Below, piece by piece: positions 20,766 through 24,084 of a DNA stretch of 48,007 nt. The position numbers were made by a program, and so were the translations under genes. The first letter of the stretch is position 1. Every line of letters starts with the position of its first letter. The notes under the pieces were generated by a model. The model did no database searches. It saw only the letters and a list, made by a program, of their open reading frames with translations, and had not been told where the DNA came from. Source of the stretch: Acidobacteriota bacterium (GTDB lineage: Bacteria > Acidobacteriota > Terriglobia > Acidiferrales > UBA7541); NCBI GenBank assembly GCA_003167215.1, contig PMTV01000032.1, positions 1 through 48,007 on the forward strand, given 5' to 3'.

Positions 20766-21521
20766 TCATCGTCGAAGCAGCTGCGAGAACTTGCGGAGCT
20801 CGGCGAGATTCAAATCAGAGGCGGCGCAGAAATTCATGCCGTCGTGCGACCAGTAAACGAGGTTATACCCCTGGATGGTCTGCACTTCCGGTAGCTTCGC
20901 AGCGCTCGATTCTTCCGGCCAGACGAACACGTTGATGAAGTGCTTTTGCCGCTGATAAACAAGCGCAGCGACGTTGCGATGATCGAGGTAATCGAGGCGG
21001 CCTCCCACCAGCGGGAAACCCTGATCCTTAAGGTCCATGACCGGAGGCGCGAAGTCCAGTTTGCCGTCGAACCAGGGTTTCACTGTGTGCTGGTCGGTGG
21101 ATTCGACATCGTACAAATGACCCGGCTGCATCGAGCGAATATGGCTCGCGACGATTTCCTGAGCGACCAGGTTTTGCTTCTGGCCGCCGATATTCGGCAG
21201 CACTTTCGCGCCCAGAAAAACTGCGATCAGGATGGCGGCGGCAACCGCAAGCCACTCGAGCACTGGGCGGCGTGGCATGGCAATCGGCTGCGAACGGGCC
21301 TCCGCCGGAAGTGCGGCGCGGATACGGTTCCTGAGGCTCTCAGGCGCTCGCTCGTATAGATTCGCCGCTCTCAACGAATTGCGCAGAGCTTGCTGATCGC
21401 GTAGCTCTTGAGCGCAATCCGGGCACGTCTTCAGATGCTCCTCGAATTCGAGGTTGCGAACGAGGTCGAGTTCGCCGTCAAAGTATCCGCGGAGCAAGCG
21501 TTCGTTATTTTCGCAGGCCAC
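20766..21521 (-). CDS. Anti-sigma factor with zinc-finger domain and one membrane segment
   Basis: The 251-residue protein has an N-terminal anti-sigma zinc finger (zf-HC2 type): C3 near the start, FDGELD, then H29-x3-C33-x2-C36. One membrane segment lies at about 91-108 (WLAVAAAILIAVFLGAKV), followed by a periplasmic domain of about 140 residues that I do not recognise beyond similarity to acidobacterial and proteobacterial anti-sigma C-termini. Its start overlaps the sigma gene by 17 bases, so the two are translated in step. Likely role: hold the ECF factor at the membrane until a periplasmic signal. Confidence 0.85.
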   Translation of the reverse strand: MACENNERLLRGYFDGELDLVRNLEFEEHLKTCPDCAQELRDQQALRNSLRAANLYERAPESLRNRIRAALPAEARSQPIAMPRRPVLEWLAVAAAILIAVFLGAKVLPNIGGQKQNLVAQEIVASHIRSMQPGHLYDVESTDQHTVKPWFDGKLDFAPPVMDLKDQGFPLVGGRLDYLDHRNVAALVYQRQKHFINVFVWPEESSAAKLPEVQTIQGYNLVYWSHDGMNFCAASDLNLAELRKFSQLLRR

Positions 21522-22062
21522 CTTGCTCCTCCTTCGCGCGCGTGCGCAGCAGTCGCTCGCGCAATTGGGCGCGCGCGCGGGCCAGACCCGACATCACTGT
21601 GCCGATGGGCACCCCGGTCACTTCGGCGATCTCCTTATAGGACATACCCTCGAGTTCGCGCAGCACTATGACCTCACGAAAATTCACAGGTAATTCGTCA
21701 AGCGCCTCGCGAAGCATTCGGCTATCGGCCGATTTTAAGAGTGTCGCTTCCGCTCCCGCCTGCTCGGTCTCCGCCGCATGAATCTTTTCGTCGAATTCCT
21801 CCGCTAATTCAGCGGGGCGATTCTTCTCAAAAAATGAATAGCAAGTGTTGCGCACGATTTTTAGCACCCAGGCGCGGGCGTCGCCTCCCTGGTAACCACC
21901 AAAGAATTTGAACGCGCGAAGATACGCTTCCTGCACCATCTCCTCGGCATCGGATGTGTTGCGGACGAGCCAGCGCGCGAGGTTGTAGGCCGCATCCATG
22001 TGCGGCAGCACAACCTGCTCAAAGGTCCCGACTGGCCCTGACCCGCGTTTCTGTTCCCCCAT
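21505..22062 (-). CDS. ECF-type RNA polymerase sigma factor
   Basis: The 185-residue protein has sigma region 2 at about 14-80 (AYNLARWLVRNTSDAEEMVQ, EAYLRAFKFF, RAWVLKIVRNTCYSFF) and region 4 at about 113-167 (LREALDELPVNFREVIVLRE, GMSYKEIAEVTGVPIGTVMS). No regions 1 or 3 and no extra C-terminal domain are present. It is followed by its anti-sigma factor. Upstream is a GGAAT-N18-GTCTG promoter-like sequence that is mirrored on the other strand, suggesting autoregulation. Confidence 0.9.
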   Translation of the reverse strand: MGEQKRGSGPVGTFEQVVLPHMDAAYNLARWLVRNTSDAEEMVQEAYLRAFKFFGGYQGGDARAWVLKIVRNTCYSFFEKNRPAELAEEFDEKIHAAETEQAGAEATLLKSADSRMLREALDELPVNFREVIVLRELEGMSYKEIAEVTGVPIGTVMSGLARARAQLRERLLRTRAKEEQGGLRK

Positions 22063-22086
22063 ACGCGCATTAGATTCTCAGTCTTC

Positions 22087-22117
22087 CAGACCGGATATCA
22101 ACCTAATTTATTCCCGC
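22087..22117 (-). promoter_or_regulatory. Candidate ECF promoter for the sigma/anti-sigma operon
   Basis: Read on the - strand, GCGGGAAT (22117-22110) is followed by 18 bases and GTCTG (22091-22087). GGAA(C/T) and GTC(T) are common -35 and -10 cores of ECF sigma factors. The sigma ATG lies 25 bases further on. GCGGGAATA forms a 9-bp inverted repeat with 22168-22176. Confidence 0.6.
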
Positions 22118-22167
22118 AAAATTCGTAATAAGTGGTGCGCAGCGGCATCCAGGGCTGATCGCAAATC

Positions 22168-22198
22168 GCGGGAATATTTCGCGGGCATGAGGTGTCTA
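22168..22198 (+). promoter_or_regulatory. Candidate ECF promoter for the metallophosphoesterase operon
   Basis: GCGGGAAT (22168-22175), then 18 bases, then GTCTA (22194-22198). This has the same cores and the same spacing as the opposite-strand site at 22087-22117. A start near 22205 would leave a leader of about 58 bases ending in GGAGGAGAGGAC before the ATG at 22263. Confidence 0.6.
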
Positions 22199-22262: not shown

Positions 22263-23222
22263 ATGTCGGACTACATTGAAAAGAATCAAGATAACGATGG
22301 CGTGGATCGTCGTGGCTTCCTGAAGTGCATGGCCTGGGCCGGTACGGGCACCCTATGTCTGGTGCAAGGCGGCGTCCTGAAATCGTTCGCCCTGGCTGAC
22401 GTTTTGCAAAAGAACGTGGGCAACCTGAAAGGCGATCTCAGTTTCGTCCAAATCAGCGACAGCCACATCGGCTTCAGCAAGCCGGCCAACCCGGACGTTA
22501 CCGGAACCCTGCGCGAAGCCATCGCCAAGGTCAACGCGCTTCCGACGCCTCCTTCTTTCGTTCTGCACACGGGCGACCTGACGCACCTTTCGAAGCCCGA
22601 GGAATTCGACACGCTCGCTGAATCGCTGAAGAGCCTGAAGACCGAGCGCATCTTTTACGTTCCCGGCGAGCACGACGTGCTCAACGACAACGGCGCGATG
22701 TTTCACGAGCGTTTCGCCCAGGGGACGCAAGGCGATGGCTGGTACAGCTTCGATCAGAAGGGAGCGCATTTTATCGGCTTGGTCAACGTGCTGAACCTGA
22801 AGGCCGGCGGTCTTGGCAATCTCGGCCACGAGCAGCTCGAATGGCTGGAGAAAGATGTTGCCAAATTAAAGAGCAGCACGCCCATCGTTGTCTTTGCGCA
22901 CATCCCGCTCTGGTCGGTTTATCCGCAATGGGGCTGGGGCACCGATGACAGCGAACAAGCGCTTTCCTACTTGAAGCGCTTCGGCTCCGTGACAGTTCTG
23001 AACGGGCACATTCACCAGACCATGCAGAAAATCGAGGGAAACATCACGTTTCACACCGCCTGTTCGACCGCTTTCCCCCAACCGCATCCGGGCGAAGCGG
23101 ATTCCCCAGGCCCCATGAAAGTACCGGCAGAAAAACTGCGCGGCTTGCTGGGTATCACCGACGTGAATTTTGTTCGCGGCAAACACACATTGGCAATCGT
23201 GGATTCAACACTTCAAGGATAA
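22263..23222 (+). CDS. Tat-exported metallophosphoesterase
   Basis: The 319-residue protein has a twin-arginine signal (D15-R16-R17-G-F-L-K, then a hydrophobic stretch to about 45). The calcineurin-like metal site follows: D66-x-H68 (QISDSHIGF), G104-D105, H213 (FAHIP) and G248-H249-x-H251. The usual GNH(D/E) box reads G135-E136-H137-D138, so the bridging Asn is Glu. Known relatives hydrolyse phosphodiesters or phosphomonoesters; the substrate here is unknown. A very strong GGAGGAGAGG site precedes the ATG. It heads an operon with a cupredoxin and a DUF2231 protein. Confidence 0.88.
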   Translation: MSDYIEKNQDNDGVDRRGFLKCMAWAGTGTLCLVQGGVLKSFALADVLQKNVGNLKGDLSFVQISDSHIGFSKPANPDVTGTLREAIAKVNALPTPPSFVLHTGDLTHLSKPEEFDTLAESLKSLKTERIFYVPGEHDVLNDNGAMFHERFAQGTQGDGWYSFDQKGAHFIGLVNVLNLKAGGLGNLGHEQLEWLEKDVAKLKSSTPIVVFAHIPLWSVYPQWGWGTDDSEQALSYLKRFGSVTVLNGHIHQTMQKIEGNITFHTACSTAFPQPHPGEADSPGPMKVPAEKLRGLLGITDVNFVRGKHTLAIVDSTLQG

Positions 23223-23233
23223 GGAGACTTCAC

Positions 23234-23626
23234 ATGCGACGCAGGAAAATTCAACAAGGCAGGACCGCAGGGATTCTCGGAACCGCAATTTTTGGAGCGG
23301 CGGCGGTTCTTGGGCTCGTACTCGCGAGTGGCGCTTTACGGCCGCGCTCCGCCATAGCAACTCAGGAACAACCCGGCGCGATTACGGTGACCATCGATAA
23401 CTTCAGTTTCGCGCCCATGCAGCTCGAAATAAAGGCTGGCACGGAAGTTATATGGATCAACAAGGACGACGTGCCGCACACCGTCGTAAGCGACGATCAC
23501 AAGTTGTTCAAATCGCGGGCGCTTGATACCGACGAGAAGTTTTCGTTCACCTTCAAGGACCCCGGCACATACGAATACTTCTGTTCGGTCCATCCGAAGA
23601 TGACCGGCAAGATCATCGTGAAGTGA
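23234..23626 (+). CDS. Exported or membrane-anchored cupredoxin
   Basis: The 130-residue protein has a basic N-terminus and one hydrophobic segment (about 13-33), then a single plastocyanin/amicyanin-like domain (about 48-130). All four type-1 copper ligands are visible: H82 (VPHTV), C117, H120 and M123 (FCSVHPKM). It is therefore probably a periplasmic one-electron carrier, free or anchored. It is 11 bases downstream of the metallophosphoesterase and directly upstream of a DUF2231 membrane protein. Confidence 0.88.
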   Translation: MRRRKIQQGRTAGILGTAIFGAAAVLGLVLASGALRPRSAIATQEQPGAITVTIDNFSFAPMQLEIKAGTEVIWINKDDVPHTVVSDDHKLFKSRALDTDEKFSFTFKDPGTYEYFCSVHPKMTGKIIVK

Positions 23627-23634
23627 GGCCAATC

Positions 23635-24084
23635 ATGCACCCATTCAATATTCGCGAAGCGCTGTTGGCCAAACATGCGCAACACGTGGTGTTAATCCAC
23701 TTCCCGATCGCTCTGTGCATGGCCGGCGTGGCGTTTGACTTCGCCGCATACTGGAAGAAGCGCAGCGCTCTCGCCACCGCAGCCTATTACAATTTCACCG
23801 TGGCTGCGGTTTTCACCTTGCCGGTAATCGCTACCGGCCTCCTCGCCTGGCAGTTTCAGCTCGAGGGGCAAAAGCTCAAGGGAATATTGCTGCAGCATCT
23901 GGTGCTCGGCATCGTCTCAAGCATCGTGATCTGCTTAGTCTGGTACGTGCACTTCCGATCGCGCCGCGCGCCGGAGCAAAATCTGCCCCGTTATTGTCTG
24001 GCAATTGAGCTTCTGGCCATGGGCCTCGTCGCGATGACTGCGCACTTAGGCGGATATCTCAGCGGGGTCAACATTCCTGGTTAG
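23635..24084 (+). CDS. DUF2231-type membrane protein
   Basis: The 149-residue protein has four hydrophobic segments and the DUF2231 features: HVVLIHFPIALCMAGVAFDF with a His in the first membrane helix, a paired Gly/Trp-containing second helix (ATGLLAWQFQ) and a late HLGGYLSGV. The family often occurs beside cupredoxins or cytochromes and may bind haem; this is unproven. The ATG at 23635 has GTGAGG six bases upstream. A GTG at 23623 overlapping the cupredoxin stop is the alternative. Confidence 0.8.
   Translation: MHPFNIREALLAKHAQHVVLIHFPIALCMAGVAFDFAAYWKKRSALATAAYYNFTVAAVFTLPVIATGLLAWQFQLEGQKLKGILLQHLVLGIVSSIVICLVWYVHFRSRRAPEQNLPRYCLAIELLAMGLVAMTAHLGGYLSGVNIPG

Follow-up and report, generated by a model that had tools for sequence, protein, structure and literature searches.

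The gap between two divergent operons in a 48,007-nt stretch of DNA from an Acidobacteriota bacterium (contig PMTV01000032.1, assembly GCA_003167215.1; hereafter the window) very probably holds two divergent promoters for one extracytoplasmic function (ECF) sigma factor. One precedes the operon for the sigma factor and its anti-sigma factor and the other precedes what appears to be its main target operon, which encodes a metallophosphoesterase, a cupredoxin and a DUF2231 membrane protein. On the minus strand, GGAATAAATTAGGTTGATATCCGGTCT runs from 22114 to 22088 and is followed by a G at 22087; on the plus strand, GGAATATTTCGCGGGCATGAGGTGTCT occupies 22171-22197 and is followed by an A at 22198. 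The interval between GGAAT and GTCT is exactly 18 bases on either strand, giving GGAAT-N18-GTCT at both sites. A preliminary description of this DNA had reported the same cores with identical spacing on both strands, together with a 9-bp inverted repeat, and we confirm each of these features, including the flanking G and A. The arms of the repeat, TATTCCCGC and GCGGGAATA, are 100% complementary over 9 nt with 50 nt between them, and they are the only inverted repeat reported within the gap between the sigma and phosphoesterase genes. This repeat arises where two extended -35 elements (CGGGAATA) meet and does not form a separate operator.

Conservation of the paired sites

Over the 3.78 Mb of the genome, GGAAT-N18-GTCT is found 19 times and its reversed form 10 times, and this gap alone accounts for two of the 19, within a span of 110 bp. 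Conservation provides a stronger argument than such genome counts, and on this sequence evidence we conclude that the paired sites are not due to chance. At a loose cut-off, 48 of 101 related genomes contain a relative of the phosphoesterase, with about two dozen true orthologues, and further relatives are present in 80 named loci of Acidobacteriota, Verrucomicrobiota, Bacteroidota, Gemmatimonadota and Armatimonadota. Acidobacteriota, Verrucomicrobiota, Gemmatimonadota, Armatimonadota and Burkholderiales share a module that consists of an ECF sigma factor, a zf-HC2 anti-sigma factor and a phosphoesterase with a twin-arginine translocation (Tat)-type N terminus, often accompanied by a cupredoxin and a DUF2231 protein; related modules are also present in Gemmatirosa, Burkholderia and Cupriavidus. 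Outside Bacteroidota, the ECF and anti-sigma genes adjoin the phosphoesterase gene in most loci.

We searched the upstream regions for any dyad of a 4-mer, a gap and a 3-mer, with the motif not supplied and the nearest relatives of the window left out. GGAAT-N18-GTC was among the top dyads, upstream of 18 of 27 phosphoesterase genes and 11 of 25 sigma genes, as compared with 7 in the best shuffled set. Among loci whose sigma factor falls in clade 1 of our tree, GGAATA-N17-GT precedes 29 of 33 phosphoesterase genes and 25 of 32 sigma genes, and the reversed pattern is found at none. The sigma gene thus shows the conserved upstream motif of its own that is expected of an autoregulated ECF factor. 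The preliminary description had named a lack of conservation of both half-sites, among relatives that share the gene order, as an outcome that would refute its proposal; in such relatives, both half-sites are conserved. The Bacteroidota orthologues have neither such an ECF gene in the locus nor a GGAATA motif. Bacteroidota loci L162-L213 instead share CATCAAG-N16-TGTAAAATA, perhaps the promoter of another factor, which precedes the phosphoesterase gene by about 80-200 bp.

Covariation of the spacer with the sigma factor

Seven loci carry a sigma factor of only 35-43% identity that forms a separate group in the tree (clade 2), and in these loci N16-GTT replaces N17-GT on both sides. In held-out loci, which were fetched after this pattern had been found, the spacer-by-clade counts for the phosphoesterase promoters are 30 to 1 versus 1 to 7, and those for the sigma promoters are 22 to 0 versus 1 to 7 (Fisher p = 4e-6 for each). 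We regard this covariation as the strongest sequence evidence that the neighboring sigma factor reads both promoters, and, being two-sided, it would constitute a natural record of sigma-promoter co-evolution. A sub-lineage of clade-1 sigma factors (L192, L161, L185 and related Verrucomicrobiota) displays a third variant of spacer and -10 element, GGAATA-N16-GTAAGGACA, at its phosphoesterase promoters.

Several observations weigh against assigning both promoters to the ECF factor. About one-quarter of the clade-1 loci lack a strict match on the sigma side, and the -10 element drifts across lineages (GTTC, GTTA, GTAT, GTAA): GTCT holds near the window, and elsewhere the element is GTTN or GTAN with GGAATA and the spacing unchanged. 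In addition, a weak sigma-70-like sequence, TTGATA-N16-GAGAAT (22074-22101, minus strand), overlaps the sigma-side promoter; it is the one minus-strand match at 9 of 12 positions, where 0.2 would be expected. This match raises the alternative that housekeeping sigma-70 drives the sigma operon and the ECF factor drives the phosphoesterase operon only. We consider that arrangement improbable, as GGAATA-N17-GT upstream of most clade-1 sigma genes extends over several phyla, TTGAT is seen only in the closest relatives, and ECF factors are usually autoregulated (PMC3817407). The sigma-70-like sequence might supply basal expression.

Two probable promoters rather than one operator

The perfect 9-bp arms could also be taken as the palindromic operator of a dimeric regulator, with the likeness to GTCT being secondary. 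The sharing of a helical face by the arms in relatives and the AT-rich center of short spacers, both described below, would suit such an operator as well. A dimeric operator, however, would be expected to keep its arms at a fixed distance and to be non-functional as a single arm; the arms lie from about 1 to 84 bp apart and single sites are conserved elsewhere. When gene order changes, the motif follows each gene. Two loci (L014 and L016) have the sigma operon downstream of the phosphoesterase operon, and in two others (L029 and L031) all genes are codirectional. The phosphoesterase site is retained in all four; on the sigma side, L016 has only a weak site and that of L029 is out of reach. The motif, complete with its -10 element and fixed spacing, is likewise kept at other non-divergent genes, namely an unlinked DUF2231 gene and a secreted-protein gene, and the spacing of its -10 element changes with the clade of the sigma factor. 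We reject the operator, to which we give very little probability, on the ground that single sites are retained at non-divergent genes, and from the arrangement of these loci we read the sites as two separate ECF promoters.

Further candidate targets in the genome

The longer pattern GGGAATA-N17-GTCT has five matches in the genome of the window and none when reversed, and across 20 genomes of the genus the counts are 28 versus 5. The five comprise both window sites, two sites within open reading frames and one near a gene for a secreted protein on contig 23 (L070:1858-2460). This protein has no Pfam family, and the motif lies 85 bases before its gene. Orthologues or paralogues with the motif occur in G010, G012, G015 and G019, such that the promoter is kept in five genomes. 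In two related genomes, paralogues of the secreted protein lie on the same contig. The DUF2231 gene of genome G008 is on another contig, unlinked to the module, and is preceded by its own copy of the promoter motif. Most of the other GGAAT-N18-GTCT matches in the genome of the window were set aside as targets because they lie inside open reading frames. The target motif predicted in the preliminary description thereby gains further plausible genomic sites, but its final four bases vary between lineages.

Helical phasing of the two -35 elements

The distance between the divergent GGAATA elements ranges from about 1 to 84 bp and clusters at about 12-15, 22-26, 35, 42-47, 54-56, 62-66 and 78 bp. 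The spacer is 56 bp in the window and 26 bp in the sister locus L011, whose phosphoesterase is 96% identical, a difference of three turns. Scanning periods of 6-20 with one value per cluster, we find a best period of 10.2-10.4 bp at every clustering level (n = 36-66), with center-to-center distances equal to whole turns minus about 1.3 bp; the two -35 elements are thus kept on one face of the helix although their distance varies. This periodicity was reached in 0 of 5000 trials of a smoothed null, and held-out clusters show the same phase (p of about 2e-5). The distances from the -35 elements to the start codons have no such period on either side, and spacers of nearest neighbors differ by 0-3 bp or by at least 8 bp, with none differing by 4-7 bp. 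The literature searched contained no report of divergent ECF promoters that are helically phased in this way across phyla, and the whole-turn clustering, together with the AT-rich center of short spacers, is the new part of these findings.

In 17 representatives with short spacers (22-26 bp), the center is AT-rich relative to the flanks (73/102 versus 120/306, p = 1e-8) and sits about where the UP element of both promoters would lie; no such AT-rich peak was found at lone promoters. AT-rich UP elements are reported to raise the activity of ECF promoters (PMC3817407). Taken together with the phasing, these observations suggest a shared or cooperative contact by RNA polymerase. We tentatively propose, with rather less than even confidence, that two ECF holoenzymes form one phased unit in several phyla, with their -35 elements facing the same side, and that the sigma and target operons are thereby switched on cooperatively. 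As to the mechanism itself, the two polymerases may share or compete for an AT-rich UP-like element bound by the C-terminal domain of the alpha subunit, or may touch one another, an idea that we hold at most slightly more firmly.

Points that count against a functional phasing are that some of the clusters are linked by common ancestry, which could inflate the statistics, and that the step test, limited to pairs of >65% identity, gives a p of only about 0.05. The phasing might accordingly be a by-product of shared ancestry and a few favored indels, with no mechanism behind it; this would leave the assignment of two promoters untouched. Related loci do have values in common, for example, 25 and 55, and the weak step test for close pairs fits this account. 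We nevertheless think it unlikely, given that the period is the best of the scan at every clustering level, that the held-out clusters agree, that the start-codon distances are aperiodic and that changes of 4-7 bp are absent among nearest neighbors. If the phasing is functional, it would point to a coupling between divergent ECF promoters.

Proposed mechanism

Upon release from the anti-sigma factor, the sigma factor would become available to RNA polymerase, and the sigma-bearing polymerase would start both transcripts from -35 elements of the form CGGGAATA(AA) and -10 elements of the GTCT type. The system would in this way amplify itself while expressing an envelope or redox module. The preliminary description had likewise proposed that one ECF factor transcribes its own operon and the divergent one, and the conserved half-sites, the clade-linked spacing and the further targets argue for that proposal. 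We read the motif, its spacing and conservation, the independence of the sites, the covariation and the targets directly from sequence; we infer that the sigma factor binds both sites and that the signal is located at the envelope. The family names of the products, a secreted phosphoesterase and a blue-copper-type protein, suggest an envelope or redox stress response. For an uncharacterized ECF clade that joins a Tat phosphoesterase and a cupredoxin in soil bacteria from several phyla, the system would supply both a target motif and an initial regulon.

Comparison with known systems

The -35 GGAATA and -10 GT motif and its spacing match those of the ECF26 factors RpoE1 and RpoE4 of Sinorhizobium meliloti (PMC6180224, PMC3511301), and the SMc01418 and rpoE4 promoters (PMC6180224), counted in the same manner, also read GGAAT-N18-GTCT. 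The likeness extends to autoregulation, which is predicted for the window, with a COG5662-type anti-sigma factor and to the RpoE4-regulated sorT operon, which includes a cupredoxin (pseudoazurin) as the window target operon does (PMC6180224, PMC3511301). The systems differ in that the predicted target is a phosphoesterase operon in the window and sulfite oxidase in S. meliloti, and the window sigma factor is only 35% identical to the ECF26 member RpoE6. Membership in ECF26, which the motif had raised, is borne out neither by the tree, a quick one with ECF26 represented by two references only, in which the window clade (support 98) stands apart from RpoE6 and a Sulfitobacter sigma factor linked to sulfite oxidase, nor by the best NCBIfam model, which is PRK12533 and not PRK12511. 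We therefore describe the system as ECF26-like at the DNA level and do not file it as an ECF26 member.

Autoregulated ECF sigma/anti-sigma operons in general serve their own promoter and a target operon (PMC3817407), as proposed for the window, which differs by its two divergent, helically phased promoters across phyla. The phosphoesterase resembles Icc/Rv0805 and the purple acid phosphatases in its profile match to solved structures and in its Pfam Metallophos domain, and differs from them by the Tat-type N terminus and the ECF-linked operon. The literature searched, which did not extend to the main ECF classification paper, contained nothing on an ECF factor linked with a metallophosphoesterase and a cupredoxin. 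On a plasmid of Janthinobacterium lividum (L222:1212-3531), a related ECF gene is divergent from a pair of c-type cytochrome and cupredoxin genes.

Genes and features of the window

The coordinates of all features are listed in Table 1. The sigma factor is short and has regions 2 and 4 only, as is typical of ECF factors, and the zf-HC2 anti-sigma gene adjoins the sigma gene in the window and in relatives, an arrangement expected of an autoregulated ECF factor. The two genes are presumably in the same operon. The phosphoesterase is of the calcineurin-like type.

Table 1. Predicted promoter elements and genes of the ECF module in the window.
Feature	Position	Strand	Basis
Predicted -35 element GGAATA, sigma operon	22109..22114	-	Sequence, conservation, dyad search
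Predicted -10 element GTCT, sigma operon, 18 bases after GGAAT	22088..22091	-	Sequence, conservation
Predicted -35 element GGAATA, phosphoesterase operon	22171..22176	+	Sequence, conservation, dyad search
Predicted -10 element GTCT, phosphoesterase operon, 18 bases after GGAAT	22194..22197	+	Sequence, conservation
Inverted-repeat left arm TATTCCCGC, extended -35 of minus strand	22109..22117		Repeat search
Inverted-repeat right arm GCGGGAATA, extended -35 of plus strand	22168..22176		Repeat search
Spacer between the GGAATA elements, 56 bp; length fits the whole-helical-turn series of relatives	22115..22170		Spacer comparison
ECF sigma factor gene, 185 aa, sigma-70 regions 2 and 4	21505..22062	-	Pfam PF04542 and PF08281; tree
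zf-HC2 anti-sigma factor gene, 251 aa, overlaps end of sigma gene	20766..21521	-	Pfam
Metallophosphoesterase gene, conserved RR (Tat-type) N terminus	22263..23222	+	Pfam Metallophos
Cupredoxin gene	23234..23626	+	Family match
DUF2231 membrane protein gene	23623..24084	+	Pfam

Further short repeats overlap the predicted promoter elements. A palindrome, GTCTGGAAGAC, at 22081-22091 contains the sigma-side -10 element and is retained in the closest relatives, and a direct repeat at 22166-22188 (TCGCGGGAAT and TCGCGGGCAT, 13 bp from start to start) overlaps the plus-strand -35 element.
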